Assembly: GCA_947561715.1 (NCBI GenBank)
Contig: OX387201.1
Location: 17,932,001 to 17,996,000 of the forward strand
Direction: 5' to 3'
DNA length: 64,000 bases
DNA from: Ascidia mentula
Lineage: Eukaryota > Chordata > Ascidiacea > Phlebobranchia > Ascidiidae
Part shown: positions 4,957 through 37,739 of the stretch, piece by piece
Layout: the number at the start of each line of letters is the position of its first letter
Numbering within the stretch: the first letter of the stretch is position 1
The notes under the pieces: generated by a model
Told to the model about the DNA's origin: nothing
Seen by the model: only the letters and a program-made list of their open reading frames with translations
The model's database searches: none
Position numbers and translations under genes: made by a program

Positions 4957-5700
4957 GATCGTTCCGAGAAACGAATTTTCGTTCCAAAATGAGAAAAACA
5001 ATTCCGAGAACATTATTTTTAAAACAATTCCGAGAACATTATTTTCATATTTTGGTTTTTGAATAGTGTTTCCAAAATCACAATCTGGGTAATATCGCAC
5101 TAAAAATAGTGTTTCGGAAATCAAACAAGCCAAAAATCACCACTAGATGTCGACAAAGAGATGAAGAAAACGTGGTTTTGCTTCTGAATAGATGGTCGAT
5201 TTTGTTACGAATAGATGCTTTCTAAATGAAGAGACTTTCGCGAAAATGAAAATATAATTTTCGTTATAGGAAGAAAATTTTCGTTACTGGAATTACTGGT
5301 ATGGATTTTCGTTCCAGGGGAAAAATTACGTTTCCGGTGAAGTTGATTTTTGATCCAGGAACACAATTGTATTTCTACACTGCAAATTGTTGATACGCGA
5401 ACTAAGTTTCTGATCCGAAATAGAATTCAGTTTCGGGAAAAGAATTTGTGTTTGGGGAATGGATATTTGTTTTTCCTAGAACAGATCGTTGCAGGAACAA
5501 AACTTTTGTTGCGGGAAAATATTTTTTTGTAATTACAACGGAATTTTACTTTCGGAAACAAAATTAACGTTTTGGGAAAGAAATTTTTTGACGGGAACAA
5601 AATTTTCGTTATTGGAACATAATTTTCGTTACGGGAACATGATTTTAGTTACGAGATTAGAATTTTTGTTACGGGAAAATAAATTTTAATTACGGGACGT
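4957..5700 (+). repeat. 20-bp degenerate minisatellite, copy 1
   Basis: Irregular tandem repeats of about 20 bp close to GGGAACAGAATTTTCGTTAC. They recur at 15890-17130 and 21600-22680 in the other units. The repeats lack stops in several frames, which produces chance open frames rich in FREQNF, RYGN and FVTG. These are best read as by-products of the repeat, not genes. Confidence 0.7.
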
Positions 5701-6297
5701 GTTGACATTTTCGAGTGACTAAGCAACTGCTAAAAAAGCGACGTCTAGAAAAACGAACGAAAATGTATTAAAAATCCACAACAATTGAAGGCACTCTCCA
5801 TACTTCCAATAAATATAGCTCTCCTCATTAACTCACCTAACATAACGCTTTGACACCAAGTACAGCATTCAGAGTATGTCGACTACCTCAGTCACCCAAG
5901 ACAATGTATTCTCACCAGCCTGAATTCTTAGCTTTTGTTTCGTAACAAAATGATATTAATGCATTCTGCACGCACGTATGACAGTTTGACGGTTTCCCCA
6001 CGAGGCAAAAAAGCCAGCGCAGCAGTTGTTATCTAAGGATGGCTCCACAGCGTCGCAGAGCGGATAGAGTGACTCAGAAAATACGCCACCAGGGCAAACA
6101 ATAAGCATTGAACCAATAATACGAATTTGTAAGCAGATACAAATGCTCCCTACAACTCGATTTAGTTTTGAAATTATTCATGTCGGATGAGATAATTGCT
6201 TGAAAGTTTTTTAACCAGAAAAAAAACGACTTTCCAATATCGAATTGCCAGTTTGCAGAAAGCTCAATAGCAAAGCACACATGGTTACGAAACAATC

Positions 6298-6408
6298 AAG
6301 AGCCATAATAATCAATCAATTTCAACAGCTGCACTGATGAGACTTTTCAGATCTAAACAGTGCGTGTATACACCCTGTCTGCAGCTCTCATTGGTTATTA
6401 TGGCTCTT
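6298..6408 (+). ncRNA. Hammerhead ribozyme relic (type I layout, one core base changed)
   Basis: Same layout as the intact copy at 17732-17842. The outer stem I arms are 6298-6316 and 6390-6408, the inner arms are AGCTGCA (6327-6333) and TGCAGCT (6380-6386), and the core CTGATGA is at 6334-6340. Stem II is 6341-6353 and stem III is about 6358-6377. A GTC cleavage triplet is at 6377-6379. The second core strand reads TAAA instead of GAAA at 6354-6357, and stems II and III carry mismatches, so self-cleavage is probably lost. Type I hammerheads are known from retrozymes and Penelope-like retroelements; which element this belongs to is not shown here. Confidence 0.7.
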
Positions 6409-6792
6409 TTCGCATATAAATCAACGTGTCATAAACTAGTCCAACTTTCTGCCCCAACCTTTTAAATGAATCCATAGTGAAACAAGTGTCTAGAGCCTTC
6501 AAACGAGACACGGCTTTAAACAATACGATAAGGCTTAGGAAACCTAAGTTAAAACTTGTCCTTCACACACCCTTTTTCATGAGCGGCGACTCATCACAAA
6601 AACATATTATGTTCGAAGTAGGTTGGATAAACTAGTACCTGAAAGTAACATTGTTATGAGTCTTACAGATAATTTAAAAGCACATTTCTGCTGGTACAAT
6701 AGGCTGGACTTTATCTTACCAGCTTCAATGAGAACATTTAACCAATAACAAAACATTCATGATCTAAGAAAGTCTAATGCCACAAGTCTAAA

Positions 6793-6817: not shown

Positions 6818-7549
6818 AATATAGGAGTCACACTTTTTACTTCTCATTTTTCCAACAGATTTCAAATAAAGAAGCAAGCCAAGCTATCTTCACAAACTAA
6901 CCTCGATCAATGCTTTGTAAAATTAGTTCCGTATTTTTGTTGAACGCTGAGCGAGGGGAGTTCAATGGGGCGTCGTTTCGCTTGACTAAGCATCTGTTTT
7001 AGCGTTCATTGAAATTTCCTGTGGCTAAATAAAGCGATGACGCAATTCTGAACAATAAATTGTCATTGGAGCTTTAGTACTTTACACCAATAATCCTGAA
7101 ATACACGCAGTCTGCCGAGAGTCACGAGCAAAGTGAACTAACTGTTAAAAACCTAAAAACCTAAATACAATCGTGCACTTTCACCCAGTCGGAAATTTAT
7201 ACCCGTACTATGTTTGTTATATCACCATGCCCACACCTGGCCAAACGGACATTGCCTTGGTATATATGCCTGGATTATATCACGAAAGGTAATGTCCGGC
7301 CGCACATGGCCATGGCATAATACATCTGGTGAAAACCTATGATTTGCCGTGGCAAGTACTGGTATAAACTATTATAAACATCTGGTTTAATACTGCATTA
7401 TCCACGGTTAATATCTGAATTATCCAGTGCACATCCCAATTTTACGCACGTGTCCCTGGTCTAAAGGAGGGATAACCTCAACACACAAAACATACAATTT
7501 TGTAGTTTAATTTTAAAACGAACTAAAGAACAGTGTCACTGTCCAGAAT

Positions 7550-9285
7550 TTATGAATTGCTTAAAACCGGCTCTGTGCTGAATCCACTCGAACCCGCATC
7601 TGTGCTGAAGCCACTCGAACCCGTATCTGTGTTGGATCCACTCGAACCTGCCTCTGTCCTTGCGATGGTGTCCTTTCGTCGCCGGTCCCTCCCATGGTTC
7701 CAGTCACAAGCCTGGCTTAGTACCAACTTTACTTCATTTCCAACAGCTTCATAAGAACTATTTTCAAATGTGGTGTACTGTAGTATTTCTGAAACAAATA
7801 CAATGACTTAACAATCTATTTTTAAATTATGTCTATTCATTGATAACTGATACAGCACAAATCACAAAAAGCACACAGATAACAATGTTAACCTCCATTC
7901 CAAAGATAAAATATATACTACTTACTTACTTGACAACATTAAATGAACTGTATGATTCTTGAATTTTATTTTTTGGTTTGGCCTTCTCTTCTCCCCCATA
8001 CCACTCCACGAAAATTGTTGGGCCAATGTTGGATCCATCAGTAACTTTATAAAATTTCTTACTGTGGCTCGCAAGCATTTCCGATTTTCTACTTGTATGG
8101 CAATCACTTTTGGATCCTTAAAAAGAAGTCCAACTCAATCACTGGCAAAACACATTGAAACTGCACAAATAAGGAAGTATAAAACCAACCTACTTTGCAT
8201 GTTTTTAGTAGTTCACCCAATTCCTCTTCTGTTTTTGCAGGATAAAATGAATGAAAACGTGGCAATGACCCAGTTGTGCTCTCATTTGTTAGTTGCATTT
8301 TCAACTTTTCTTCAAAACTCACAACAGTTTTTTGTAGTGTTCCTATTTCATCTAAAATTTTGTCCTGCTTTCTTTGCACTGAAAGTGTTGATGATTGCAG
8401 TTGTAATATATGGTGAATCATGTTCTGCATATCATCACTGTTTTTGACAACCTTTGCTGCAATGGGTGATTTGAGGGGTTGTGCAAAGAGTCGTTTTCTT
8501 GGTGATGATTGAAGACTATACCTAAAGATATTTAGTCGGAGCATTTTACCAAATTTATTTAGTAAAGATACTAAAATTCTCTGCAACTCTTTGCAGGCAC
8601 ATTGTGTTAACAAATACAATGGATTGTAAGGGCACAGTGGCTTGTGTGTGTGAAACATTCCCATCAGTCTCACTGTCAGTTTCACATGGTGAACTGATAT
8701 ATCCATCTTTCTGGAAATTCTTTTTATATGCCTTTGCTTGACATGTTTGAAAAGTGTCTGAAACAAGGAATGCATGTTCAGTGTGTCTTAAATCAAATCA
8801 TTTTTATTTTGCACAGTGGGACGCACATGAACAATAAATATTCAATATTTATGTGCATCGAACAGTAAATGGGCGCCTGACTCGATAACCTTTATGGTTT
8901 TATCGGTGCCCATGCCATTTTTTTTCCTTGTATATTGTTCTTACACGTAGTCGCTTTTTTTCGCAAAATAAACATGATTTGATAAATATGCAAAAATAAA
9001 AACGCCATGGGCACCAATAAACCACAAGGGTAATTTTACACAGTTTTAAAAGGGTTAAATTTGCACTTTTTGTTTAATTCTGAAGAATTACATCATACTT
9101 GATTGCTTTAAAATTTCACATTCATATGTAGGCCAGTTGGATTCTGGTGGAACTTTTTCCTCTGCCATCTTTTGTATATTTCCATTTAGAGGCCATTTGC
9201 AGTGGCTCTCTCCAACCATCCACAGTCTTGGCACAACATCTGTGGTGCCACCAACAGTAAATTGTACACAAAGAAATTTTTTCAT
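7550..9285 (-). CDS. DUF4806-domain protein of the CACTA-like transposon (about 5 exons)
   Basis: The start is ATG 9285-9283 (MKKFLCVQF). The first exon (9099-9285) has the N-terminal segment usual for DUF4806 proteins (VVPRLWMV, CKWPLNGN, SNWPTYECEIL) and ends at a GTATGA donor. Exon 2 starts at 8757; its donor is unclear. Exon 3 (8194-8521) encodes a predicted coiled coil (QRKQDKILDEIGTLQKTV) and FYPAKTEEELGELL. Exon 4 (7930-8116) completes DUF4806 (DPTLAQQFSWSGMGEK). Exon 5 (7550-7788) adds a Ser/Gly-rich tail with a repeated GSSGFSTD motif. Donors and acceptors of exons 3-5 are in matching phase. DUF4806 proteins are known from invertebrate transposons, but their role is unknown. The gene lies just 3' of the transposase and on the same strand, so an accessory transposition function is an inference. 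Confidence 0.75.
8887..9031. repeat. Imperfect inverted repeat inside intron 1 of the DUF4806 gene
   Basis: The arm at 8887-8916, containing ATCGGTGCCCATGCC, pairs with 9004-9031, containing GCCATGGGCACCAAT. About 90 nt of AT-rich sequence lies between them. It could be a small foldback element or simply a hairpin; no clear target duplication was seen. Confidence 0.45.
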
Positions 9286-9413
9286 TTTATTCAAATATAG
9301 TTTTTCTTTTTTCACACTCCTCTGCAAAATAAACACAAAATCGTTAATTTTATCCAAACATCACATATATACTATAGCAGAATTTCCAGTATTTGTTATC
9401 ATACTATAATTTA

Positions 9414-11656
9414 TCAGATATTGTGCAGCAATTCAACAGCAACAAACTTACTCTTGTAAGGAAACAAAATACATTTACTCACACTAGTGTCAAAAATAAC
9501 TACTTCAGAAATATCATTCAAAGAAGATACTTTAAAAATTCCTGCATTTGTAGAAAGGAAGGGCACTTTAAAAAAACACTTCACATACTTATACCTTTTC
9601 ACTATAAAGAATTTGTTATTATTACAATCCACAACAATGTCAACCACTTTTGCTATAGTATCATTATATCTTATAGTTGCATTGGCACGTGAGGCTGTGT
9701 TTAAAATACAACCTGAATGTAGTTTAGCCATTTCATAATGCTTTACTACTTTCTCATGAAAATGAGCCATTGCAAAACTTCGATCCGTTACTTTTCTGAC
9801 ACTTCCTCTTTCAAAGCCAATACTTTCCATTTTCATTGTCATAACAATATTTTCATTTTCATGAAAAGCGTGTGAGGCCACTTGAGACAAAGGCTTATAT
9901 CCAGATCGCACACAGTTTTTTAAAATTCCAAGATAGCTTTCAAATGGAAAACTACTTATCATGTCCAATGAACCATACATACAAAAATCATCCACTAGGT
10001 GCACAACACTATGTACATTGTAAGTTACAAATCCTTTACCATACAGAGAAGAGCACTCACAAAAAAATTTGTTAAGGAGATTTCCACACTCCAGCACATA
10101 CTTATTGCCATGTTTTGATATTAAAAGACGCATAGCCACACATAGCTTTAAAAAATGGCAATATTTCTTTTTTCCTATAATATTTTTGTCTTTCATGACA
10201 ACCAAGCCAACATACAATAAAAAAAGACGGAATTCAGATGCCTTCCAGTACGCAAGCTCGGACATGGGTCGCAACTTGCGATTGAACTCAATAGGGATAT
10301 AATCCTTTATTTGATTGAGCTTTTCATCCAAAGTCTTAAGTGCATGTGTTGATAGCTTGGCTTGGTTATGTCTGTATAAATTTGGATACAAATACATTAA
10401 CACAGCTCATTAAATGTATATACACACATTAACACACAAAATTACCTTCTCATGCCACGCCACCAGGACAAAAGCCGTTTCATTACTCCTAAGCAGCAAA
10501 GATGCATATAATCGAATATGAATCCACTAACCATACTAACACCAAAGTCAGCTAAAATAGACTTTCCAACATGATGCTGTTTATGAATTTGTAACTTGAA
10601 GTCACTGTCAGACCTCAGAGTACAGCTATTCTCAAGCAAACAAACATGACCTGAATTAGAATCGTAGACACCAGTGGCAGTGCACCTCTCACAGCTGTTA
10701 TATCCAGAGTGTGATTTAATTCTCTTTAGGCTGCTTCTAGCTGGAGCATCACATACATAAACTCCTTTATTTTCCATGAAAAAGACTTTGTTATTTGCAG
10801 TCATGGGATTTGAGAAAAGATGCTCGATATCATTTAAAAATTGTTGTAGAAAAACATTCACATCAGGCATTTCTCTATTGCGCGATTTTTGCGTACAAAA
10901 GATTCCAGCACACAATGGTCTCATCTTCACTTGGTGAACACTCACCAAAATCGGGTAGAGCTTGAAATCAGGTGAATGTTTGAAAAGTGGCAAACCATCA
11001 ATGTTAATCAACAATGTATACCTTACAGTTCCTCCTGTGTTTTTATAAGAATACAACAGCGCTTCGTGCAGAGCTCCTCTCCAATTTGCGAAGTGGACAT
11101 ATTGGCCTTCGAACATAGCTGTTGGTAACAGAGTTTTCACAGATGTTGGCAATTCACCATGGATGGTGTTTAAAGCTTTTAGCAACCTAGAAACAGCTGC
11201 TTTTGGTACATTCAACTCTGTTAATGCCCATGTGGTTAATATATTAGTGATGTTGGGGTTTGGTTCTGTGGTAGTACTGCAGTAACTTTGTTCCACACTA
11301 TTATTAACCACATGGGCATTTAAGTGATTACTTGGATCCATCTCAGTATCATTGGCACCAAAACGGCAATCATCAGATTCATCATCAGTTACACTAGAAG
11401 TTTCATTAAATCCACATTCATCATCAGTTACACTAGAAGTTTCATTAAATTCACATTCATCATCAGTTACACTAGAAGTTTCATTAAATCCACAGTCATC
11501 ATGAATAACCAAATGGTCAGCTTCCTCATTTAGTCTTTCTGGTTCTAAACCATTGCTCAAAGCCAGTTTTTTAGTTTTTCTTCTTACCCACTTTTGTTTA
11601 GCTGACAAAGCATCATACTTTTTATAGTATGTGCGTCGACTTTTACGTCTCGGCAT
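9414..11656 (-). CDS. TNP2/DUF4218-type transposase of the CACTA-like element (2 exons)
   Basis: Exon 1 is 10446-11656, starting MPRRKSRRTYYKKYD at ATG 11656. Exon 2 is 9414-10371. The 74-nt intron has GT-AG ends and matching phase 2, and the total is about 722 residues. Exon 1 has a basic N terminus and an acidic repeat (ECGFNETSSVTDD, about three copies). The transposase domain follows, marked by INIDGLPLFKHSPDF, FVCDAPARS-like VYVCDAPARSSLKR, HSGYNSCERC and FDYMHLCCLGVMKRLL. Exon 2 carries the DUF4218-like part (YWKASEFRLFLLYVGLVV, YNVHSVVHLVDD, FPFESYLG). These motifs are characteristic of animal relatives of the plant CACTA TNP2 family, where the enzyme cuts the element at its inverted termini. 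No internal stop or frameshift is seen, so it could be functional. Confidence 0.85.
11383..11502 (-). repeat. 39-bp coding repeat in transposase exon 1 (about 3 copies)
   Basis: Units run from CACTAGAAGTTTCATTAAAT to TCATCATCAGTTA. They encode the 13-residue motif DDECGFNETSSVT. The derivative copy at 41345-41588 has about six units, so the number varies between copies. Confidence 0.8.
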
Positions 11657-14150
11657 AAATTACGATGGGCCTTAATTTGTTATTCTGTAGCCAGCCACAC
11701 AAACTGAAATGTAATATTTATTCATGTTATGGTGATGTGACAAAACCAAATACAAGAATTAAATAAATATTTAGCTAACAGCACATTAATAAAGTTCCTA
11801 TTTGAACTAAAATATTTCCTCAGTTTGAGGAATACAAATATTACTTCAACATTCAACCCACTTACCTGTTTATTCCAACACAAAAGTAATACAATGTTTA
11901 TGCTATCACTTTTACCCCTATTTCAAACATTAAACTTACATTATTGACCAACGGCAACGATTACAAAAGATTTTAAACTATGCTGACGACATCGCATCAT
12001 CGCAATCGAAAACCACGAGGCAATTTTCACGCATCGTTAAACACAAAAATCAGTGATAGAAATCAAATCATACTGACAGTCCGTAACATCCTGTAATTTA
12101 AATACCGTTTTACAATTATTTGCATTGTTGAATAATTAAACACCATCTTTAAAGTAACACAGGCCTCCTTAGGATTACATAATGCAATTCAACCGAAGCT
12201 GACGATTTTCGCTTTTTTGGGGGGTTGTTTGCCGGTAACAGGCGGTCTACACGTCATTGCTATGGTGACGTAACACCATTACACTTGTTAGTTAGCCTAA
12301 TATGTCGAGACTATTAATTTTTGTAGGTATTGTACCAACCTTTAGCAAGCATCAGTATTTAGAATTAACAGCTTTCTTGGACAATTAGACAAACACAGAA
12401 ATGTTAACGCAATATGTCGGTAATTTTGTTTCCGACGAACCTTACTTGAACTTAGTGAAATATAACATCTATTTTGGCGCATCTTAACAAAGTCTTTAAA
12501 TGTATCTCATCTCATGCACGAAATATGGTGGTAATATAGCTGACAATACATTATATACCCAAGACGTTTTCTTAGTTAGGCCACCACAGTGATAACACGG
12601 GTATGAAAACACATTAACGCACGAAATATCCACGAAATTCCGTTGATAAATCAAGTGAAACACCCCATACCCGCACTGTGTTGGTATTTCGGGGTTAATA
12701 CAAGTGAAGGCAGACATGGCACGGTGGTATTGCAGGGATAGTTTCCGACTGGGCATATGCCAAAGAAACCACGAACGCCAAGACTTTTGAAATTAATTTA
12801 CAGGATACTACAGTTATTTATACTGATAAATATTTGTAGCGCAAAGTGAAATGTGATGTAATACTGTGTGTAGAGCAATATAGGACAGTGGGGCTTATGT
12901 TATCTGCCAAAAAGACTAATTTAGTATTACTTGACACGCAAAATGATGCAAAATGCAGTAAAATGTCAGTAAATCTTTAATTGACTGTGCCCCAGTTGAA
13001 ACTTATTGATAACTTTTTGTGTATCTTGCAAGCATAAGAAAATTTTCCCCGAGATTGCCGAATCGATGTATATGGCACACTTAGTGCGTCCACATTAACA
13101 CAATGTGGGGCTATTACTTCTAAGTGTAAACCTATTAGTTTATAGAGAATTAAGGCCCGAAACGTTATTTTCCTTTTTTCCAACGCTGACATCACACAAA
13201 AACGGATAACCCAATCGCAGGGACTTTTTTCATGAAATAAACCACGCCAAGACAGACTGCCCTAGCACTTAAAATAAATGATGTAAAGGACCGAAGACGC
13301 CAAGCGAGTCGCAGGCACGAAGAACATAAATATGGCGCAAACGCGGCGAAACCGGCGGGCGATCAACACAATCGGTGTTAATAGCGCTTTGGTGTACTCA
13401 TATAGTACCAGGTCAGCTTCCAAAACGCGGGTGATGCAACTGCACTTATGTCAATATGACGATTATGATTATTTCAGGCTCTATTAGACTAAAATATAAC
13501 TGCTTTGTAAGTAATGGAATTGATCTTTAGATTGACTGACATCACAGCCAAGTCTCTGTAGTCAAATTATATTGAAGTCAATGTGGATGTGGGACTCTCC
13601 TATACCGAGTAACATGAGCTCAACGGATATTAATGAAAGTTCGACAGTGCGGAAAGGCACAACTTGTCAAGCGACCTTCACAATTACCAAAAACATTTTT
13701 ACCACCGGAAATAGTAAGCGGGAACGGTAGCAATGCAATGATTAAGTTTGACCACAATGTCTCGATAACAATGCCAGTGAACCTAATGATCGCAGTATTC
13801 TAAGGGCTTTCGCGGTAGAGTGAAGTTGTTTGTTTTCCTTACATATTACTGTTGATAGCTAAGGATATCAATAAAGCCTGTTGTTTTCCGTCCCTTCATA
13901 CAAAACACAGCATCAAAGCCACGCTCTTTTGCAATATGACTTGCACAACCTGGCAATGGAGCTAAAATGTATTGATTTCAAAATAGAAAAGTTAATCAGC
14001 AACCAGCTGCGTCCACAAATTAAACTAAATTACACCTCCAATTAAACTGAATTAGTTCCGCATTTCTGTTGTACGTGAGAAGAGTTGACTGGAATGGTGT
14101 TTCGCTTGACTGAACATCTATTTTCGAGTTCTTCGAAATTTAGCTGCGGC

Positions 14151-15889: not shown

Positions 15890-17130
15890 AAAACGAATTT
15901 TCGTTCCCAATAAGAAAAACCGTTTCGGGAACATTACTTTTGCGCCAATTTTCGTTATAGGAACATATTTTGGTTTTTGAACTGTGTTTCTAAAATCACA
16001 ATTTGGGTAATATCGCACTAAAAATAGTGTTCCGGAAATCCACCAAGCTAAAAATCAGCACTAGATGTCGACAAAGAGATGAAGAAAACGTGGTTTTACT
16101 TCGATTTTTTGTTACGAATATATGTTTTCTAAATGTAGAGACTTTAGATAAGATTAAAATGTGAATGAAATATAATTTTCTTTCTGGGAACAGAGTTGGC
16201 GTTGCTGGAATTACGGGAAGAGAATTTTTGTTCCAGGGTAAAGAAAAATTTAACTTTTGATTCACGAACATAATGGTCGTTCTTTGAAGAGAATTGTTGT
16301 TACGCGACCTAACTTTCGCTTTTTTTTATCGTGGAACAGAAGTTTTGTTACGGGAACAGAAATTATGTCACTGAAAGAAATGTGTGTTGGAGGAACAGAA
16401 TTTATAATCCTGGGAGAGAAATTTTTGTTACTGGAGCCTATTTGTTTCAGAGTAAGAATTTCATTTCCGGTGAAGTTAATTTTCGATCTAGAAACACAAT
16501 AAACGTTTTATCAAAAAAATTGTTGTTACGCGATCTAAATTTCAGATTAGAAATATAATTTTAGTTTCGGTAGAAGAACTTGCGTTGCGGTAAAATAAAT
16601 TTCATAATTCGAACAGATTTTTGTTACTGGAACAGAATTTGTGTTTCGAGAGCAGAATTTTAGTTCCGGGAACAGAATTTTCATTTCGGGAACACAATTC
16701 TTGTTTCGGGAAAACAATTTTTGTTTCGAGAACACAATTTTTCTTACGGGAACTAAATTTACGTTACCGGTGAAGTTAATTTTTGATCCAGGAACACAAT
16801 TGTATTTCTATGCTGCAAATTGTTGATACGCGATCTAAATTTCTGATCCGAAATAGAATTCAGTTTCGGGAAAAGAATTTGTGTTTCGGGAATGGATATT
16901 TGTTTTTCTTAGAACAGATCGTTGCAGGAACAAAACTTTTGTAAGGGGAAAATATTTTTTTTGTAATTACAACGGAATTTTACTTTCGGAAACAAAATTA
17001 ACGTTTTGGGAAAGAAATTTTTTGACAGGAACAAAATTTTCGTTATTGGAACATAATTTTCGTTACGGGAACATGATTTTAGTTACGAGATTAGAATTTT
17101 CGTTACGGGAAAAAAAATTTTAATTCCGGG
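15890..17130 (+). repeat. 20-bp degenerate minisatellite, copy 2
   Basis: Longest version of the GGGAACAGAATTTTCGTTAC-like array, interspersed with GATCTAAATTTCTGATC-type spacers. Collinear with 4957-5700 over its second half and with 21600-22270 over its first half. Confidence 0.7.
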
Positions 17131-17731
17131 ACGTGTTGACATTTTCGAGTGACTAAGCAACTGCTAAAATAGCGACGTCTAGAAAAACGAACCAAAATGT
17201 ATTAAAAATCCACAACAATTAAAGGCACTCTCCATACTTTCAATAAATATAGCTCTCCTCATTAACTCACCTAACATAACGCTTTGACACCAATTACAGC
17301 ATTCAGAGTATGTCGACTACATCAGTCACCCAAGACAATGTATTCTCACCAGCCTGAATTCTTAGCTTTTGTTTCGTAACAAAATGATATTAATGCCTTC
17401 TGCACGCACGTATGACAGTTTGACGGTTTTCCCACGAGGCAAAAAAGACAGCGCAGCAGTTGTTATCTAAGGATGGCTCCACAGCGTCGCAGAGCGGATA
17501 GAGTGACTCAGAAAATACGCCGCCAGGGCAAACAATAAGCATTGAACCAATAATACGAATTTGTAAGCAGACACAAATCCTCCCTACAACTCGATCTAGT
17601 TTTGAAATTAATCATGTCGGATGAGATGATTGCTTGAAAGTTTTTTAACCAGGTAGAAAACGACTTTCCAGTATCGAATTGCCAGTTTGCAGAAAGCTCA
17701 ATAGCAAAGCACACATGGTTACGAAACAATC

Positions 17732-17842
17732 AAGAGCCATAATAATCAATCAACTTCAACAGCTGCACTGATGAGAACTTTCAGGTCGAAACAGTGTGTG
17801 TATACACTCTGTATGCAGCTCTTATTGATTATTATGGCTCTT
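17732..17842 (+). ncRNA. Type I hammerhead ribozyme with complete core
   Basis: All conserved parts are present in order. A 19-bp perfect outer stem I pairs 17732-17750 with 17824-17842. An asymmetric internal loop is followed by an inner stem I, AGCTGCA (17761-17767) with TGCAGCT (17814-17820). Core strand CTGATGA is 17768-17774, stem II is 17775-17787 (one mismatch) and core GAAA is 17788-17791. Stem III, CAGTGTGT with ACACTCTG, spans 17792-17811 with a GTAT loop and one T-T mismatch. The cleavage triplet GTA is at 17811-17813. A15.1-U16.1 pairing is possible (17791 with 17812). Hammerheads of this layout occur in Penelope-like elements and retrozymes, where they cut tandem transcripts into units. 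Here the ribozyme lies inside a tandemly repeated unit, which fits that role. Activity has not been shown. Confidence 0.85.
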
Positions 17843-18119
17843 TTGCGCTTATAAATCAACGTGTCATAAACTAGTCTAGCTTTCTGCCCCAACCTTTTAA
17901 ATGAATCCGTAGTGAAACAAGTGTCTAGAGCCTTCAAACGAGACACAGCTTTACACAATCCTGATAAGTAAACAATCGAACTAACAACACTTCGGCGAGG
18001 TTGAAAAACCTGTAAACATCCTTGAAACGCAAAGGATGTAACTGCACTTATCCTTATTTAAAAGCGTATTAATTTGAACAGACCCACAGCTCTACTGACG
18101 AGTTACAATTGCCTTTAGT

Positions 18120-21599: not shown

Positions 21600-22680
21600 T
21601 CGTTCCGAAAAACGAATTTTCGTTCCCAAATAAGAAAAACCGTTTCGGGAACATTATTTTTACGCCAATTTTCGTTGCAAGAACATATTTTGGTTTTTGA
21701 ACTGTGTTTCTAAAATCACAATTTGTGTAATATCGCACTAAAAATAGTGTTCCGGAAATCCACCAAGCTAAAAATCAGCACTAGATGTCGACAAAGAGAT
21801 GAAGAAAACGTGGTTTTACTTCTGAATATAAAAAGGAGTCGATTTTATTACGAATAGATGTTTTCTGAATGTAGAGACTTTAGAAAAGATTAAAATGTGA
21901 ATGAAATATAATTTTCTTTCTGGGAACAGAGTTGGCGTTGCTGGAATTACGGGAAGAGAATTTTTGTTCCAGGGTAAAGAAAAATTTAACTTTTGATTCA
22001 CGAACATAATTGTCGTTCTTTGAAGAGAATTGTTGTTACGCGACCTAAATTTCGTTTTTTTTTAATCGTGGAACAAAAGTTTCCTACGGGAACAGAAATT
22101 ATGTCACTGAAACAAAATGTGTGTTGGAGGAACAGAATTTATATTCCTGGGAGAGAAATTTTTGTTACTGGAGCCTATTTGTTTCAGAGTAAGAATTTCA
22201 TTTCCGGTGAAGCTAATTTCGATCCAGGAACCCAGTTGACGTTGTTTCATGAAAATTGTTGTTACGCGATCTAAATTTCTGATCAGAAATATAATTTTAG
22301 TTTCGGGAGTAGAACTTTCGTTGCGGTAAAATAAATTTTATAATTCCAACAGATTTGTGTTACTGGAACAGAATTTGTGTTTCGAGAGCAGAATTTTCGT
22401 TTCGGAAACACAGTTTTTGTTTCGAGAACACAATTTTTGTTACGGGAACTAAATTTTCCTTACGGGAACAGAATTGTCTTTGCGGGATTAGATTTTTCGT
22501 TACGGGAACGAATTTTTCCTTACGGGATCAGAATTTTCGCTATAGGAACAGAATTTTCGTTACGGGATCAGAATGTTTGTTATGGGAACGGAATTTTCGT
22601 TTCGGGAACAGAATTTTCTTTGCGGGATCAGAATTTTCGTCACGGGAACGAAATTGTCCTTACGGGATCTTCCTTCTTAC
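21600..22680 (+). repeat. 20-bp degenerate minisatellite, copy 3
   Basis: Contains the cleanest tandem run, about 22370-22670, with period near 20 bp and units such as GGGAACAGAATTTTCGTTAC and GGGATCAGAATTTTCG. Frames stay open for over 110 codons by chance of the repeat. Confidence 0.75.
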
Positions 22681-23279: not shown

Positions 23280-24087
23280 ACCCCCAATTAACCCTTCTAC
23301 CTAAATCGGTACTTTTCACAAAGCTGCTTCCCTAATTCTGATACTGCCCAGAACCCTGCAATAACGGCTCACCACAAAGCCAAAGTTACCCAGGCTGATT
23401 AAACTTATTGGACGTCGTGTCAAACTAAAAACGTTCAAAATTTCGCACAGCTGTTTGTGGTCGATACAGACGCGTCCGAAATCGCTGTAAGATTTCTTTT
23501 GTCACAGAAAGTGGGCGGTAAGGAGGTAATTGTCTACTGGAGTAGATCTCTAAACCGTGCCAAAAGAAACTATTCAACGAGGAGAAAAAAAGTTGCTTAC
23601 GGTAATATTTGAGACCGAACTGTATCGAAGCCATCTTCTAGGTCTGAGGTTTTTCTGCGAACAGATCATTCTTTCCCTCGTTGGTTATGACAGTCGAAGG
23701 AACATTACAGACAGTACGTACGTTTGGTGGAATATTTTCCGCGTTTGACTACGACATTCAACATAGACCGGGAAAAAATATCGTAACGCCGATGGGCTGC
23801 CACGTGTACACGACAGAAGTGTAAATTCTAACTTCCTATACAAGTTGACGACAGAAGCGGTCTTGGTGCAGGTGGTGGACATTAATAAAGCCTGTGAATG
23901 GCATAATACCGTGTACCGCCCCTTTAACTCGACATTGGTGATCGCTTTTCCATAGACTAAGGAAAGGTTTTGTACGTGGAAACTGATTTGTCGGTTGATA
24001 TTGTACTCAAAATAGTTCTCTCTCCAAGTTAAGGACAATGGGTTATGGTTGGCATCTAGATATTGTGAACACTCGGAAGTCGCCAGT
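23280..24087 (+). pseudogene. Ty3/gypsy pol relic (RNase H), left flank of the Polinton
   Basis: RNase H is visible around 23440-23600: LFVVDTDASEIAVRFLLSQ, VIVYWSRSLN, AKRNYSTRRKKVAYG. Further on, short pieces match the relic at 55640-55850, including GACATTGGTGATCGCT and CATCTAG followed by AAGTCGCC. The element stops abruptly at the Polinton terminus (24088) inside what would be the integrase zinc-binding region. The sequence resumes at 38924. Frameshifts and stops are present throughout. Confidence 0.75.
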
Positions 24088-24500
24088 AGTAAAGGGTGAC
24101 AGAGTAGAGAACGGGGAGAACTTCCTTCCTGTCTCTCTGCTACTCTTTCCGGTTAGGGAGACAGGAAAGAGTACTCTTTCTGTTCTCTTTCGTATGCATT
24201 TCAAAGGGGGACATGTGTCAGGGAGATACTCACAGTTACTCATGAGCCTTCCGGTCTTGATTGGGAGTAAAAATAAGATTCTCCTATTGTTTGTCTCTTT
24301 CCGGTGTCGCAATCGTGATTCTATTTTTATCTTGAGCGTCTGAACTTTGTTTGAGATGTCCTCGCCAAGGAATTCGAGGTCACACGCAGTTCACTGAGTG
24401 GTCGTGTGGCGTTTGTGACACTATCTGGTGGGTTGTTTCCTGAATTGGACCGTTATTTCTAATGATGACGTGGTCGATAAACGATCTTGTCAATCACTTG
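24088..24500 (+). repeat. Polinton left terminal inverted repeat
   Basis: About 413 bp, nearly identical to the reverse complement of 38491-38923. The difference is a handful of substitutions and an extra roughly 18 bp in the right copy near 38525-38545 (ATCAATCATGTCATCGCAAC). Sequence identity stops at CAATCACTTG on both sides. Confidence 0.9.
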
Positions 24501-24641
24501 AGTATAATCTCGCATACTCGGCGTTGCGGGTGAATTCCATTTGGTATAATTATGTGTGCATGGTGATTTGCCGCAATTCAACTGAAGCACTGGGCGGGAA
24601 ACGTTTGAGCGGTTGATTAGTTGCACGGATTGCTTTTCGCA

Positions 24642-25247
24642 ATGGAATTTGCTCACCCGTTTACATGTCTAATCTCCGGTCCAACTGGAAGTGGGAAGAC
24701 TTGTTTCGTCTCCCGTCTGATACAAGAGAATCTCATCGTGCCCCGCCCGGAGCGGATTATTTGGTACTACGATCAGTGGCAATCCGCGTATGAAAGTCTA
24801 CCCGATTCGATCGAGTTTGTTCACGGTGCGCCAACCTCTGTGGATACGGGCGTACGAACCCTCTTGATTCTCGACGACTTGATGTCCGAAAGCAGTAAAA
24901 TTGTCTCACGTTTGTTCACCCAGGGCAGTCATCATAAAGACACGAGTGTAATTTACATCGTTCAGAATCTTTTCCTGAAAGGCAGCGAGCATCGGACAAT
25001 CAGTTTGAACGCACACTATCTGGTGGTCTTTAAAAATCCCAGGGATTCGTCAAAGATAAACCACCTCGCCAAACAAGTATTTCCATCCCATGTTAGGGCC
25101 GTGCGAGACGCATATATGGATGCGACATCGGCCGCACATGGTTATTTGGTATTCGATTGTCGGCAAGAAACACCTGACAAGCTTCATCTGCGAACAGGGG
25201 TGTTCTGCGGTGAAACATCGTTCGCTTACGTTCCGAAGAACTTTTGA
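24642..25247 (+). CDS. A32-like genome-packaging ATPase (FtsK-HerA superfamily)
   Basis: 201 residues from ATG 24642. Walker A, SGPTGSGKT, is at about residues 12-20. Walker B, LLILDDLM, is near residue 74. A sensor-like IYIVQNLF follows near residue 104. This matches the short ATPases of Polintons and adenovirus-like capsid lineages, which power packaging of linear DNA into the capsid. It is the first gene after the left terminal repeat, and the next small gene starts 2 nt after its stop. Upstream TTG codons extend the frame, but the ATG fits the family length best. The frame is intact. Confidence in the family is high; packaging in this host is inferred. Confidence 0.92.
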   Translation: MEFAHPFTCLISGPTGSGKTCFVSRLIQENLIVPRPERIIWYYDQWQSAYESLPDSIEFVHGAPTSVDTGVRTLLILDDLMSESSKIVSRLFTQGSHHKDTSVIYIVQNLFLKGSEHRTISLNAHYLVVFKNPRDSSKINHLAKQVFPSHVRAVRDAYMDATSAAHGYLVFDCRQETPDKLHLRTGVFCGETSFAYVPKNF

Positions 25248-25248
25248 C

Positions 25249-25586
25249 ATGTCCCGTCGACTCGATAAACACGCGGCGGTTTTGAATACGCTGTGCAAAG
25301 CTGAGCCAAGAGTCGTGCGCGCGATCATAAAAGCGGCCGGCCCTGATTTGATGAAGTGTATTTGCGAGTGTAGCCATAACGTGCTAAGGGGTAACATTGA
25401 TTTAACCGAGCGCGACCGACAGAAGTTACTGCGGCACAAGAACGTTTTGCGCGAATTGGTCAAAAAAAGACGCCGGTGACGCGAAAACGCAAGTTGATTC
25501 AACGCGGAGGATTCCTGTCCGCACTGCTGGGACCTCTCATTGGAACAGTGGTCCCTGCTCTAGCGGGTTTATTCGCTCGGCGCTGA
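25249..25586 (+). pseudogene. Small basic Polinton protein with GGFL hydrophobic tail, split by a frame break
   Basis: The first part (25249-25479, 76 residues) starts MSRRLDKHAAVLNTLC and ends in a basic KKRRR. In the -1 frame the sequence continues through RKRKLIQRGGFLSALLG and an Ala/Val/Leu-rich stretch to a stop at 25584-25586. A run of seven A at 25462-25468 is the likely site of the frame change. In related Polintons, as I recall, both parts form one protein. The GGFL plus hydrophobic tail resembles the end of adenovirus pX-type core proteins, which is a weak likeness. A programmed or transcriptional slip at the A run cannot be excluded. A second, decayed copy is at 25895-26208. Confidence 0.55.
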
Positions 25587-25894
25587 TGGAATCTGTGCAA
25601 AAGCTTGAAGAGGCGGATAAACCAATGACGATGGTCGAGCGCAAGAACGACGATACGACTGACCGAAAAGCGTCTGTTGCGCACGTTTATTGAAAAGTAA
25701 AGTGACAACAGAGACATACGTCAAAAACGTTGTGGTTCATTGGAGACTTATGTGATACAACGAAGGTTCTTTAAAATTTGTTACACGATTTTAGGAACGT
25801 CATATTCTCCGCTCAAACAAAATTCTAGTCAGGCAAACAGCTCGCTTGACCACGCTAGGTCGTTCATGCGTGAATTGAAAGTCTTGTGGTTAAC
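25587..25894. other. Spacer created by an internal duplication
   Basis: The beginning (to about 25690) repeats a shortened form of the start of the 26210 gene (MESVQKL, then MTMVERKNDDTTDRK). The rest has no recognisable gene. The first copy therefore lost most of that gene by deletion. Confidence 0.6.
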
Positions 25895-26208
25895 ACGCGG
25901 CGGTTTTGAATACGATATGCAAAGCCAAACCAAGAGTCGTGCGCGCGTTCATAAAAGCGGCCGGCCCCGATTCGATGAAGTGTATTTCTGAGTGTAGCTA
26001 TAACGTGCTGAGGGTGACGTTGATTTGATCGAGCGCGATCAATAGAAGTTACTGCGGCACAAAAACGTTTTGCGCGAATTGTTCGAGAAAAAGACGCTGG
26101 TGACGCGGGAACGCAGTTGATTCAACGCGGGGGATTTCTGGCCGCACTCCTGGGGGTCTCTCATTGGAACAGTGGTCCTTGCTCTAGCGGGTTTATTCGC
26201 TCGGCGCT
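25895..26208 (+). repeat. Second, decayed copy of the small basic gene
   Basis: Aligns with 25273-25585 (GCGGCGGTTTTGAATACG, GCGGCACAAAAACGTTTTGC, TTGATTCAACGCGG). It carries in-frame stops and small indels. Together with 26210 onward it marks a tandem duplication of about 0.64 kb at this place in the Polinton. Confidence 0.75.
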
Positions 26209-26209
26209 G

Positions 26210-26848
26210 ATGGAATCTGTGCACAAGCTTGCTCTGATCGATCCAGCTGTTTTAAAGACAATGCGCGACAAGGCGCCAGCTTCGGCGTCACCAGTTGATC
26301 GCGTTTTATCGGAACTGGATCGTGAAATGCATGATCTCATTTACGACGCAAGGCCAGCCGAGGAAAAGGTCAAGTTGTACGGGCAAGCCCTGCAGCGCTA
26401 TCGGTTCCTCAGCGAAGAACAAGCGAATAAACCCATGAAAATGACGATCATCGAGCGCAAGAACGACGATACGACCGACCGAAAGGAGGCTATTGCGCAG
26501 CGCGTTGTCCGAGCTATGCCGAAAACACTAAAAGTTAAAGCCGAGTCATTGATTTCGTTTATTCGCGAAGCGTCCGGAATCGAATTTTTGCCATCGGGCG
26601 AACTTGTTTTGAAGGGCGAAAGCGTTGCTAATAGTAATATCGAGGATTTGATACATGGTGTGTTGCGCAAAAAATCTCCTCGAGGCCTGAAACCGATTGG
26701 CGAAGCTAAATTCATTGCAGCACTGAGTGATGCGAACGCGCCCAAAACGCTTTTGGCTAAAAGGGCTGCGCCGGTGCCGTCTACTTCACACATTCCACGT
26801 CGTCGGAGCGTTGTTCGTGAGTCGTTGTCGCGATGGCAAGAGATTTAA
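26210..26848 (+). CDS. Conserved Polinton protein of unknown function
   Basis: 212 residues from ATG 26210 (MESVHKLALIDPAVLK). It is charged and helix-rich, with a central KVKLYGQALQRYRFL and a C-terminal GELVLKGESVANSNIEDLIH followed by an Arg-rich segment. Proteins of this pattern sit between the packaging ATPase and the integrase in many animal Polintons, but I know of no proven role. Its last 16 nt overlap the integrase start, so the two are likely read from one transcript. A truncated repeat of its 5' part is at 25587-25690. An upstream in-frame extension covers the GGFL tail of the duplicated small gene and is probably not used. Confidence 0.7.
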   Translation: MESVHKLALIDPAVLKTMRDKAPASASPVDRVLSELDREMHDLIYDARPAEEKVKLYGQALQRYRFLSEEQANKPMKMTIIERKNDDTTDRKEAIAQRVVRAMPKTLKVKAESLISFIREASGIEFLPSGELVLKGESVANSNIEDLIHGVLRKKSPRGLKPIGEAKFIAALSDANAPKTLLAKRAAPVPSTSHIPRRRSVVRESLSRWQEI

Positions 26849-27879
26849 GCCGCGCTTACTACGATCCCGCGCACCCTGGCAGTCTTGGTGGTGTGAACCG
26901 GCTACGGACTGCTGTGGGTGCAAGCCATAAAACGGTGAAACGGTGGCAAGGCAGTCAAGATACATACACATTGCATAAGCCCCGTCGTAAACATTTTTTG
27001 CGTTCACGTGTCGTTGTGTCTGGAATCGATTCTTTGTGGCAAATAGATCTGGTCGAAGTACAGAAACTTGCTCGTGAAAATCGTGGTGTGCGATATTTAG
27101 TAACCATTATCGATGTATTCTCTAAATACGCTTGGGTGGTTTGCATTAAGCGAAAAACCGGTTCCAACCTAGTGTGGGCCGTCGATCGTGTGATTCATGC
27201 GAGCGGGCGGCGACCGGATCAACTGCAAACAGATGCGGGTCGCGAGTTTGTGAACAGTGTCTTTCAAAAGTGGCTTTCGAAGCGTAACATTCAATTTTAC
27301 ACGACGTACAATCAGGAAACGAAAGCGTCGGTGGTGGAACGCTTTAACCGCACACTGAAAGAGCGTTTGTGGCGCCACTTTACGCCCACGGGCAATAATA
27401 ATTTCACTGGCGCACTGCCGCGCATAGTGAAGAGTTACAATCGCAGTCATCATCGCAGCATCGGCATGAGTCCCGCAGAAGTCACTCACGCTAAAGAGGA
27501 GGAAGTTTGGAGTAATTTGTACGGCGAGCAAGCCTGCCCGGACACTTGCACATTGCCGGTCCGTGCACCTGTTCGCGTTGCTTCCGCTAGCGCACGCTTT
27601 AAAAAGGGCTACGTTCCCCAGTGGAGCCAAGAATTGTTTTTGGTTCATTCGCGACGCAGTGGACGCCCGCCCACTTACAAAGTGCGCGATTACAGCGGCG
27701 AGGTTATTCGGGGGACGTTCTACGAACAGGAGTTGCAACACAAACGTACCTTTGAGGTGGAGAAAGTCTTGCGAACCAGAAAAAGGCGTGGTGTCAAGCA
27801 GTATCTGGTGAAGTGGCGACATTACGGTGAGAAATTCAATTCCTGGATCGATGGACGATCGTTCCAGCACGGCGAATAG
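26833..27879 (+). CDS. Retrovirus-like integrase with C-terminal chromodomain
   Basis: 348 residues from ATG 26833. The DDE core has D72 (WQIDLVEV), D134 (LQTDAGREFV) and E169 (SVVERFNRTLKE), with 34 residues between the last two, as in rve-family integrases. The C terminus (about residues 309-344) is chromodomain-like: FEVEKVLRTRKRRG, QYLVKWRHY and SWID. In Polintons this enzyme joins the inverted termini to host DNA and makes a 6-bp duplication. The family usually has an N-terminal zinc-binding HHCC, which is not clear here. The frame is intact, so integration function may persist. Confidence 0.93.
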   Translation: MARDLSRAYYDPAHPGSLGGVNRLRTAVGASHKTVKRWQGSQDTYTLHKPRRKHFLRSRVVVSGIDSLWQIDLVEVQKLARENRGVRYLVTIIDVFSKYAWVVCIKRKTGSNLVWAVDRVIHASGRRPDQLQTDAGREFVNSVFQKWLSKRNIQFYTTYNQETKASVVERFNRTLKERLWRHFTPTGNNNFTGALPRIVKSYNRSHHRSIGMSPAEVTHAKEEEVWSNLYGEQACPDTCTLPVRAPVRVASASARFKKGYVPQWSQELFLVHSRRSGRPPTYKVRDYSGEVIRGTFYEQELQHKRTFEVEKVLRTRKRRGVKQYLVKWRHYGEKFNSWIDGRSFQHGE

Positions 27880-28105
27880 AAGCGAGTGGAGCTTTTTCGG
27901 CAAGGAAGCCCCACGGTCTGAAGTGGTCTTTGTATTCCAAATCGTCGTGATTTATTCGGTGATTGTGACGAGCTTGCTCAACTTAACGGTTGGAAGTCCT
28001 AGTCAAAGCCTGTGGACTACGCTGTTAGCAAGCTCCGTCGGTTACGTATTGCCCGCACCTAAGCTGAAAAAACGGCGCAATGTACGTGACCCTGCCATCG
28101 AATAA
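27851..28105 (+). CDS. Small Polinton membrane protein
   Basis: 84 residues from ATG 27851 (MDDRSSTANRSEW). Two hydrophobic segments are visible: VVFVFQIVVIYSVIVTSLL and LWTTLLASSVGYVLP, followed by a basic tail. The start lies inside the integrase 3' end (29-nt overlap), and its end overlaps the penton gene by 26 nt. This compact packing supports a real gene. Similar two-helix proteins with a GYVLP-like end occur at this spot in other Polintons. The function is unknown; a virion membrane or entry role is only a guess. Confidence 0.7.
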   Translation: MDDRSSTANRSEWSFFGKEAPRSEVVFVFQIVVIYSVIVTSLLNLTVGSPSQSLWTTLLASSVGYVLPAPKLKKRRNVRDPAIE

Positions 28106-28820
28106 TTCCGTGGACATCTTCCCGAACAATCGTCCGTCCGAATTTACAACAAAGCTACCCGCCGTTATTTCCCTGGACACTGGCGAGTGGGAAGTTAGCC
28201 TGAGCGAGATTATATTCCCGCATTCGTGGAATAATATTGGCGAATTCGAAGGCTGGTTTGACTTGGCGCAAGGTGGCAGCACGCAGCGCTACACGCTTAA
28301 TGCGGGCCATTATGAAACCGGGCGAATTTTAGTGCAACGAATGCGGAAAATGGAAGATTTCAAAATCAAACGCTTGACCGGTCACGGTCTGTTTACCTTC
28401 GATGAGACAACGCAACGCACTGGTGCGCACGTTCCAGAGGGTTTCGCGGTGACCCTCTCACCGAAACTGGCACACTTGTTGGGTTTCGAACGCGTCGAGC
28501 TGCCCCCGGGTCAGCATACGAGCGCGCGCCGATGCGACGTTTCCACCGATTACTCCGCAATATATGTTTATACGGTCATCATTCAACCTCGCGTGGTTGG
28601 AAACACGATGGCGCCGCTACTAGAAATAGTTCCGGCAGGCGACGGAATTGGCAAATTACACCGTGTGCGTTTCACGCGTTTGGCATATCATCCGGTTCGC
28701 ATTCGACATTTCGGCAAAATCCAAACGGCTTTATATGACGGTTTCGGCAAACTCATATCATTTGAACGTGGTAACGTGATCGTAACGCTACATTTCCGTA
28801 AGAAGCCGCTTCGCCTTTGA
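28080..28820 (+). CDS. Minor capsid (penton-like, single jelly-roll) protein
   Basis: 246 residues from ATG 28080. The N terminus MYVTLPSNNSVDIFPNN followed by GEWEVSLSEIIFPHSWNN is the hallmark of Polinton penton homologues. Those proteins occupy capsid five-fold vertices and are predicted to have one jelly-roll fold. The rest is beta-rich with no signal peptide. The start lies within the upstream membrane-protein gene, and the stop is 2 nt before the next start. No break is seen. The identification rests on family motifs and on position before the major capsid gene. Confidence 0.88.
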   Translation: MYVTLPSNNSVDIFPNNRPSEFTTKLPAVISLDTGEWEVSLSEIIFPHSWNNIGEFEGWFDLAQGGSTQRYTLNAGHYETGRILVQRMRKMEDFKIKRLTGHGLFTFDETTQRTGAHVPEGFAVTLSPKLAHLLGFERVELPPGQHTSARRCDVSTDYSAIYVYTVIIQPRVVGNTMAPLLEIVPAGDGIGKLHRVRFTRLAYHPVRIRHFGKIQTALYDGFGKLISFERGNVIVTLHFRKKPLRL

Positions 28821-28822
28821 AC

Positions 28823-29236
28823 ATGACTCATCACATACCGTATAACGCTGAGGCCGACTTTAGAGATTACGAGAACTATTATCACTGCCAGGCCGGCCGG
28901 GGCTTACCGCATTTCGCTGGCGCGCTTTCGATGCGCGGACATGGGCTCGGTAACCTGTTCGCCAGTTTAGGCCGCGCCGTGTTACCGGTGCTAAAATCAG
29001 GCGCGCGACAAGTGGGCAAGCAGTTTCTGGAATCAGGTGTCGGTTTTGCAAGTGACGTCATGGCCGGACATACTCCGCGAAAGGCGGCTATAAAGAGGTC
29101 GCGACAGGCGGCTCACAGGTTATTACCCACTGCGAGTCATAACTTGACGTTGCCACCTGGCGAACCGGCGAAGAAGCGGAAACGCAGGAAACCGGCAGGC
29201 AAACGCAAGCGCAACCGTGACGACATTTTCGCTTGA
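28823..29236 (+). CDS. Polinton core-like protein, Gly-rich with basic tail
   Basis: 137 residues from ATG 28823 (MTHHIPYNAEADFRD). A glycine-containing amphipathic middle (GHGLGNLFASLGRAVLPVL, KSGARQVGKQFLESG) is followed by a strongly basic C terminus with several KKRKRRK-like clusters. This layout is common for a gene placed between penton and major capsid in Polintons and adintoviruses, and it recalls adenovirus core or pVI-type proteins. DNA binding by the basic tail is likely; membrane action of the middle is speculative. The frame is intact. Confidence 0.75.
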   Translation: MTHHIPYNAEADFRDYENYYHCQAGRGLPHFAGALSMRGHGLGNLFASLGRAVLPVLKSGARQVGKQFLESGVGFASDVMAGHTPRKAAIKRSRQAAHRLLPTASHNLTLPPGEPAKKRKRRKPAGKRKRNRDDIFA

Positions 29237-29239
29237 GGG

Positions 29240-30541
29240 ATGGCGTTAATCAGTGAGCACTCGATGCGTTGTGCGAAAAGCGAATTGGATTTATTTACAC
29301 TGAAGCCGACGCAAACCAGCGTAAACTCATCGCTCTTTGTCGAACATTTACCCCTAGCTACGGTAACAGACGCGGGGCCGTATGATTTTTTGATCGCCGC
29401 GGACGGAGAGCATTACATTGACCTTAACGACACGTTGCTGTCGTGTACCGTTCGTATCACCAAAGCTGATGGCACAAATTTGGACGCGGACGCTCCAGTG
29501 GCACCGTCAAATTATTTCGCACACGCCTTGTTCAGTCAAATGGAACTGTCTCTCAACAATAAAACGGTGACGCCCTCCAGTAATAATTACGCTTACAAAT
29601 CGTACATCGAGACACTTTTATCATTTGGATCGGAAGCGAAGAATACACAACTGACCACATCGCTTTGGTATGGTGACGACGCAGGGCAGATGAACGCATT
29701 GACGCGAAGTAACAGTGGATTTCAAACCCGTCGCGCGATGGCGGCCGAGAGCCGTTCAATCGAAATGCTGTCTAAACTTCACGTCAGTTTATGTCAGCAG
29801 TCCAAGTACATCTTAAACGGCGTCAACATTCGCCTGCGTCTTACGCGCGGTAAGGACGAGTTTGCTGTGATGGCCGCCGCTGATGCGAATGTGAAAATCA
29901 ATGTGATGGATGTGCGATTATTCGTCCGCAAGGTCAAACTTAATGCGGCTGTAACTGTCGCGCACCAAAAGATTTTACAAGCCAATTCTGCCAAGTACGC
30001 GATGCGCCGATCGGAAGTTCGCGTTTTCACGGTCGCCGGCGGTAGTATGACCACGGTTTGCGACGCTCTAGTGACCGGTCAAATACCGGTCAGATGCGTG
30101 TTCGGGTTCGTCGACGCCGCGGCCTACAACGGGGCCTTTGACCGAAATCCCTTTGAGTTCAAACACATGAACATTACGTACCTAGCTTTGCACGTAGATG
30201 GTCGTATCTACCCCGCCACCGCATTTAAGCCCGATTTCCAAGGCGGTCATTACATAAGAAGCTATTTATCGCTTTTCACGGGTACCAATTCGCATTGTGA
30301 AAACCGGGGCAATTCCATATCGTATCGCTCGTACCCGCGCGGATACTGCTTGTTTTGTGTGGATTTGACACCTGACCACAGCGACCTTGCAACCTTCGAC
30401 CTCTGGCGTTCCGGTTCGGTGCGCTTGGAGGTGCGATTTAAAAACGCGCTCGCTGCGCCTGTAGCGATAATTGCATTTCTTGAATTCGACAATTTACTGA
30501 CTATCGATCTTTATCGCCACGTGGTGACGGATTTCGCTTGA
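29240..30541 (+). CDS. Major capsid protein (double jelly-roll)
   Basis: 433 residues from ATG 29240 (MALISEHSMRCAKSELDLF), 3 nt after the previous stop. Recognised by family features: SSLFVEHLPLATVTDAGPY near the N terminus, IDLNDTLLSCTVRITKADG, and HALFSQMELSLNNKTV, with a late ITYLALHVDGR. Polinton major capsid proteins form trimeric hexons with two jelly-rolls, like adenovirus hexon. There is no stop or frameshift, and length is as expected. Together with the penton, ATPase and protease it makes a full morphogenesis set, which suggests that virion assembly was under selection until recently. Confidence 0.92.
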   Translation: MALISEHSMRCAKSELDLFTLKPTQTSVNSSLFVEHLPLATVTDAGPYDFLIAADGEHYIDLNDTLLSCTVRITKADGTNLDADAPVAPSNYFAHALFSQMELSLNNKTVTPSSNNYAYKSYIETLLSFGSEAKNTQLTTSLWYGDDAGQMNALTRSNSGFQTRRAMAAESRSIEMLSKLHVSLCQQSKYILNGVNIRLRLTRGKDEFAVMAAADANVKINVMDVRLFVRKVKLNAAVTVAHQKILQANSAKYAMRRSEVRVFTVAGGSMTTVCDALVTGQIPVRCVFGFVDAAAYNGAFDRNPFEFKHMNITYLALHVDGRIYPATAFKPDFQGGHYIRSYLSLFTGTNSHCENRGNSISYRSYPRGYCLFCVDLTPDHSDLATFDLWRSGSVRLEVRFKNALAAPVAIIAFLEFDNLLTIDLYRHVVTDFA

Positions 30542-30543
30542 TA

Positions 30544-30996: not shown

Positions 30997-31169
30997 GTAA
31001 AAATACATGAATTATTTCTGGGTGTTTTGTGTCTGACAAGGGGCATTTTCTCTCTGTATTTTTTTATTCCACGCGGAAAAGACGACAAAACAACAAACAT
31101 CGGCACAAAAATCCCGCGACAAGGCGCAACACATTCTGCGACGATAAAATACTCCGTTCTACAATGTAT

Positions 31170-31315
31170 CGGTTTCCCCCCCCTATAAAAAAAACTTTAT
31201 TAAATTTAATTCAATTTAAATTAAAAATTTATTTAAATTTTTAAAATTTTATTAAATTTAATTCAAATTAAAAATTTATTTAAATTTAAAAAAAAAAAAA
31301 AAACTTACCGGGTTG
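31170..31315. terminator. AT-rich spacer between convergent Polinton genes
   Basis: Nearly pure A/T with two copies of a roughly 75-bp block (TTATTAAATTTAATTCAA...) and a run of 16 or so A. It lies between the protease (+) and the 31350 gene (-). It probably holds the 3' ends and poly(A) signals for both directions, which is an inference. Confidence 0.4.
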
Positions 31316-31349
31316 AAATCGGGGCCGGGGGAGGGTCTTAAATACAAAA

Positions 31350-37735: not shown

Positions 37736-37739
37736 CTAG

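Follow-up and report, generated by a model that had tools for sequence, protein, structure and literature searches.

Plant LTR retrozymes are non-autonomous elements with a hammerhead ribozyme, and have as features of their own a type III hammerhead, LTRs, PBS/PPT and a 4-bp target-site duplication (TSD) (PMC4918200; features via PMC7229834). Animal non-LTR retrozymes carry type I hammerheads in tandem units of ~170–400 nt, reach thousands of motifs per genome and, where target duplications are present, have duplications longer than 4 bp (Cervera & de la Pena 2020, PMC7229834). Tunicates are not named in the available text of PMC7229834, and nine type I hammerhead loci are described from an ascidian, Didemnum vexillum (PMC8704543). 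Penelope-like elements (PLEs) have been named as candidate movers of retrozymes, since both carry type I hammerheads and the two co-occur (PMC7229834, PMC7761336). At AT-rich targets, one such Penelope protein cleaves the two strands and extends them both, and two adjacent internal RNA start sites account for the genomic tail, a feature called unique to PLEs (Frangieh et al. 2024, PMC11167929). Penelope elements of rotifers have head-to-head pLTRs with a 31-bp tail on one of them, TSDs of 8–10 bp, and are mobilised in trans (PMC3846280).

We analysed a 64,000-nucleotide stretch of the Ascidia mentula genome (C69:17932001-17996000, hereafter the window), with genome searches over the 196-Mb assembly of 79 contigs, and describe a hammerhead-bearing insertion in the window, the retrozyme family to which it belongs and the form that insertions of this family take. 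The family resembles plant LTR retrozymes in being non-autonomous and in carrying a hammerhead, and animal non-LTR retrozymes in its type I hammerhead, the size of its tandem units, its abundance and the length of its target duplications.

The hammerhead in the window and the insertion that carries it

The initial annotation had described a type I hammerhead with all of its parts in order, which our analysis bears out: each part lies where it was placed, including the predicted cut (Table 1), and the open stem is stem I. Identity with plant LTR retrozymes is ruled out, as an open stem I does not make a type III hammerhead. Perfect pairing held for the inner and outer parts of stem I, but stem II and stem III contain one mismatch each, A.G and U.U respectively, and the activity of this copy is for that reason probably reduced, though not necessarily lost, to judge from its sequence. 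The minimum free energy is -44.1 kcal/mol (z -5.95), and the catalytic stem II is absent from the corresponding fold. The covariance-model check gave a divided answer: no Rfam family matched at its gathering score, but in E-value mode, with 361 bases searched alone, the best match was RF03152 (RAGATH-1-hammerhead; 30.1 bits, E 0.0032, gathering score 56.3).

Table 1. Features of the retrozyme insertion and its surroundings, in window coordinates
Feature	Position	Strand	Remarks
5'-truncated retrozyme copy, short inverted and direct arm	17732..17854	+	123 bp
Short inverted arm, m280 to m262	17732..17750	-	exact reverse complement of 17824-17842, monomer m262-280
Direct arm, about m189-m292, up to 3' site A	17751..17854	+	start judged
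Candidate target-site duplication AATCAA, left	17728..17733	+	weak; 2-nt overlap with arm
Candidate target-site duplication AATCAA, right	17854..17859	+	1-nt overlap with arm
Type I hammerhead ribozyme	17761..17820	+	inner part of stem I 7 bp long; predicted to cut after 17813
Inner stem I	17761-17767/17814-17820		7 bp
CTGATGA box	17768-17774		
Stem II	17775-17787		
GAAA box	17788-17791		
Stem III	17792-17811		
Triplet GTA	17811-17813		predicted cleavage after 17813
Outer arms	17732-17750/17824-17842		19 bp without mismatch
Duplication block with retrozyme insertion	16755..17968	+	95% to 5322-6532
Other window copy of duplication block	5322..6532	+	self-comparison
Second copy of retrozyme insertion	6298..6419	+	core mutated, GAAA to TAAA

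The perfectly paired outer stem I of the initial annotation is the short inverted arm of a head-to-head insertion. The window site is a decayed, single truncated unit of a retrozyme, of which 17753-17854 correspond to monomer positions m191-292 at 92% identity. Its left end, m280, lies between the two preferred 3' sites of the family (A and B, below) and fits neither, and its candidate duplication measures 6 nt, against a control mean of 4.7 nt for the longest shared end string. Very short inverted matches (9–17 nt, counted without a control) are present in the one-armed copies L053, L054, L064 and L078, so that the 19-nt arm of the window is unexceptional. The left cDNA of this copy would have been just 19 nt long, and may thereby have created the perfect outer stem by accident. 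Perfect inverted stems flanking ribozymes of this kind can therefore be insertion scars, which is a caution for their interpretation.

The initial annotation had further placed the ribozyme within a tandemly repeated 6-kb unit, which it would process to unit-length RNA. Retrozymes and PLEs, which it invoked, proved the right neighbourhood, but self-comparison resolves the supposed array into three partial, diverged copies interrupted by an insertion of ~5.6 kb (about 7184-12753). When a 181-base query around the motif was compared with the genome, at least 50 matches resulted (best 40 of 1379 candidates scored); at least 36 of these are dispersed places that match 17753-17854 alone, at 91–94%, the flanking query bases being unmatched, while the remainder comprise four local copies and at least 10 shorter pieces. 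Four of the five paralogous loci fetched, on the same contig, match both flanks and skip 17732-17861, while the fifth (L035) matches the left flank alone. In those four, 25–44 unrelated bases stand in place of the skipped interval, and hence they provide a candidate empty site rather than a clean one. The insertion and its left arm are common to all four local copies, and we conclude that the retrozyme entered the locus a single time, before the duplication took place. Two of the four are damaged, one having TAAA for GAAA and another a rearranged stem III. Ten ORFs in or beside the duplicated unit were compared with Pfam and none matched at E 0.01.

These observations bear on two alternative accounts of the ribozyme. 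That it is a hammerhead-like sequence arising by chance might seem to gain from the absence of an Rfam match at the gathering score; a pattern scan for the core and three stems, however, gave a single match across the window against zero in 200 dinucleotide shuffles, and a 35-base family signature, allowing up to 2 mismatches, occurs at 815 genomic places against 0 for its reversed control. The family counts contradict a chance origin, the probability of which is negligible, and the non-chance origin claimed initially stands. The other account is a giant retrozyme or Penelope-like unit of 6 kb, processed by its hammerhead, and the fact that the ribozyme is present twice in the window, in related blocks that lie 11.4 kb apart and belong to two of the three units, is what might be expected of it. 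Yet the ribozyme is dispersed through the genome without the flanks of the unit, is missing from four of the five fetched paralogs (those matching both flanks) and is damaged in half of its local copies, and the ORFs tested are without a Pfam match. Being neither intrinsic to the units nor intact in them, it is very improbable as their processor, and we reject this account; the window ribozyme came in with a dispersed element and is not a processing site of the 6-kb unit.

Several other features of the window were recorded. The insertion that splits the units (7184-12753) contains a sub-threshold DUF4218 ORF (9414-10406, minus strand) and a 39-bp tandem repeat, and a partial copy related to it lies at 41044-43274. 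A Polinton/Maverick-like element with inverted terminal repeats of ~435 bp (94%) occupies 24086-38925 and has an integrase+chromo ORF and a sub-threshold PolB ORF. A 20-bp minisatellite (GGAACAGAATTTTCGTTACG-like) is found at 5591-5697, 16611-17122 and 22348-22667, and arrays like it are numerous genome-wide. A 187-bp repeat array with higher-order structure lies at 59195-63002. For a NACHT ORF in the window 65 relatives were found, and all of those whose source is named come from tunicates (Ciona, Clavelina, Styela).

A retrozyme family of about 293 nt and its insertions

The pattern CTGATGA-N4-30-CGAAAC occurs 4600 times in the genome, compared with 75 times for a reversed control. Head-to-tail monomers are spaced at 293 nt in L050 and 292 nt in L051, and the monomer has a GC content of 47.8%, which is below the 50% given in the text of PMC7229834 and above the 45% of its Figure 1. 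When the 293-nt monomer was tripled, its longest stop-free run was 89 aa; the retrozyme codes for neither RT nor GIY-YIG endonuclease. Among 88 distinct hammerhead strings, stem I has at least 5 bp in 72, and stem II is mostly invariant, so that covariation evidence is weak. We regard this as a new, abundant retrozyme family of the animal type, going by a comparison of its features with those of published retrozymes. A search of a phage collection returned no match. In Rfam's E-value mode no hammerhead was found at E 0.01 for L050, L048, L106 and L038, the sole matches to these four loci being microRNA precursor families, all below their gathering scores; in L048 and L050 it is the head-to-head retrozyme palindromes that score in this way, and hence such palindromes pass for microRNA precursors in loose Rfam searches. 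A second retrozyme family, seen in L004 and L005 (GACCTTTTAGGTC-like stem II), has an inverted arm of 30–34 bp, also on the 5' side.

Insertion anatomy was studied in 87 loci (L040-L126) picked from query or signature matches, mostly exact signature matches. These contained 89 clusters, reduced to 88 on dropping a 35-bp fragment in L079 and to 80 distinct insertions on dropping eight with shared flanks. Thirty-eight of the 80 consist of two arms placed head-to-head, 42 have one detectable arm and none is tail-to-tail. Their 3' ends cluster at two sites, A, for the most part m291-m2, and B, for the most part m262-264. The cleavage site follows m251, and A lies about 41 nt and B about 11 nt past it. 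With class limits of m284-m12 for A and m254-279 for B, drawn once the ends had been seen, one arm ends at A and the other at B in 31 of the 38 head-to-head insertions, or 31 of 34 when the count is limited to those in which each end could be classed (P 3e-7 if the two ends were independent). The seven exceptions comprise three A/A pairs and four with another end, and B/B pairs do not occur. The two arm ends are offset by a median of 30 nt (range 22–38 nt). The outermost bases share an end string of at least 7 nt in 29 of the 38, compared with 6.3% of 1406 mismatched pairs, such a string being absent from the other nine, and the median overlap between arms is 2 nt. Predictions set beforehand were applied to a hold-out of four small loci, three of which share a flank; the one informative locus, L146, agreed. 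A hairpin common to the RT start sites was looked for and was not convincing.

Head-to-head arms and two-site ends are not among the features that PMC7229834 describes for animal retrozymes, and its main text does not use the word 'inverted'. In PMC7229834, PMC7761336, PMC11722881, PMC8490949 and PMC8704543 we came across neither head-to-head nor tailed retrozymes.

Penelope-like elements as the probable mobilisers of the family

Genome searches gave at least 121 GIY-YIG matches (best 150 of 382 candidates scored), and the matches listed include 24 neighbours within 10 kb, of which 17 are head-to-head, none tail-to-tail and seven on the same strand. Penelope-like tandem units of 2870 bp are present on contig C67, and one unit encodes a protein of 892 aa in which RVT_1 and GIY-YIG domains occur together; the protein has 1928 relatives, and the species-named ones among the best 120 of these are animal. 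Ten Penelope-like pairs were fetched from the head-to-head pairs, which number at least 17, and in all ten a tail of about 28–40 extra bases is present on exactly one arm and none on the other, the call for L142/L143 being made from the duplication offset alone. Like GIY-YIG PLEs, then, the retrozyme has head-to-head arms with a tail of 30–40 nt on one of them, a TSD of about 8–10, tandem copies and a hammerhead (PMC3846280, PMC11167929); unlike them it lacks RT and endonuclease, and it has no significant similarity to the fetched Penelope pieces (L127-L145, including the units L127 and L129). Penelope recognition of the retrozyme RNA is hence without an explanation in shared sequence. Separate retrozyme copies do lie within the Penelope pieces L128 and L141; in L141, on C72, the copy (687-801) is about 400 bp outside a Penelope-like head-to-head pair.

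Since retrozyme insertions look like Penelope insertions, the strongest candidate mobiliser is the Penelope machinery, which probably moves the family, given an insertion anatomy that matches both the pairs of the same genome and published biochemistry. Source loci would be transcribed and the RNA cut by the hammerhead; a Penelope-like RT/GIY-YIG protein, going by published work on another species, would bind this RNA and cut both strands of AT-rich DNA. From each cut end, reverse transcription may then start at either of two sites within the RNA that lie ~30 nt apart, and the two cDNAs would be joined head-to-head, often via microhomology, with duplication of target bases; in these last steps the anatomy is seen in the insertions and the enzyme is putative. 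Two details depart from the Anolis system: the retrozyme start sites are AT-rich, unlike the AC-rich stem-loop at which reverse transcription starts there, and the Anolis protein shows no strand difference in start site, unlike the two-site rule of the retrozyme (PMC11167929). These departures weigh against the Penelope reading, as do the seven exceptions to the two-site rule, the 42 one-armed insertions, the nine pairs without an end string of 7 nt, the class limits drawn after inspection of the ends, the missing sequence similarity to Penelope pieces and, in the window copy, the left end that fits neither site and the 6-nt duplication.

Tandem monomers and the flanks shared by eight of 88 insertions might instead indicate satellite DNA spread by recombination, the inverted copies being rearrangements. 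Shared flanks do mean that part of the spread is by duplication, but the shared end strings at insertions, the single orientation of pairs and the preferred outer ends all argue against recombination as the general process, and we reject it as very unlikely. Mobilisation by LINE-type machinery deserves more weight, with the inverted arms as products of ordinary twin priming. Twin priming likewise yields head-to-head inversions and variable duplications, which counts in favour of a LINE. Against this are the two preferred sites, used one each in 31 of 38 head-to-head insertions, and the use of two sites by Penelope-like pairs of the same genome as well; from this comparison of retrozymes with Penelope-like pairs we consider a LINE unlikely. 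A truncated retrozyme at 17732-17854 that belongs to a Penelope-mobilised family is, taken whole, the best explanation, with a probability of about 0.8.

Templates and implications

The arms cross the cleavage site unbroken, and the template was therefore circular, or uncut at that point. Among arms longer than 300 nt, a subset selected after the data had been seen, five of 15 (in L044, L048, L055, L064 and L094) end at m250-252, the cleavage site, having crossed it once uncut, where ~1% would be expected by chance; over all 121 arms, six 5' ends fall at the cleavage site against 2.9 expected, which is not significant (P 0.07). The long arms suggest that such templates were linear, with one junction left uncut and the 5' end produced by the ribozyme. 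It is conceivable, at odds that we place somewhat short of even, that animal hammerhead retrozymes are SINE-like partners of Penelope elements, copied from both cut ends at two RNA sites, and that part of their templates are linear, ribozyme-cut oligomers and not circles. Insertion in the Anolis system is unchanged by hammerhead mutants, which speaks against the ribozyme-cut part of this proposal (PMC11167929).

The insertion signature can be counted, and the retrozymes share it with the Penelope elements of this genome as well as with published Penelope biochemistry. Hence, the question of how retrozymes are mobilised is now testable in any sequenced animal, and also in one in vitro assay.
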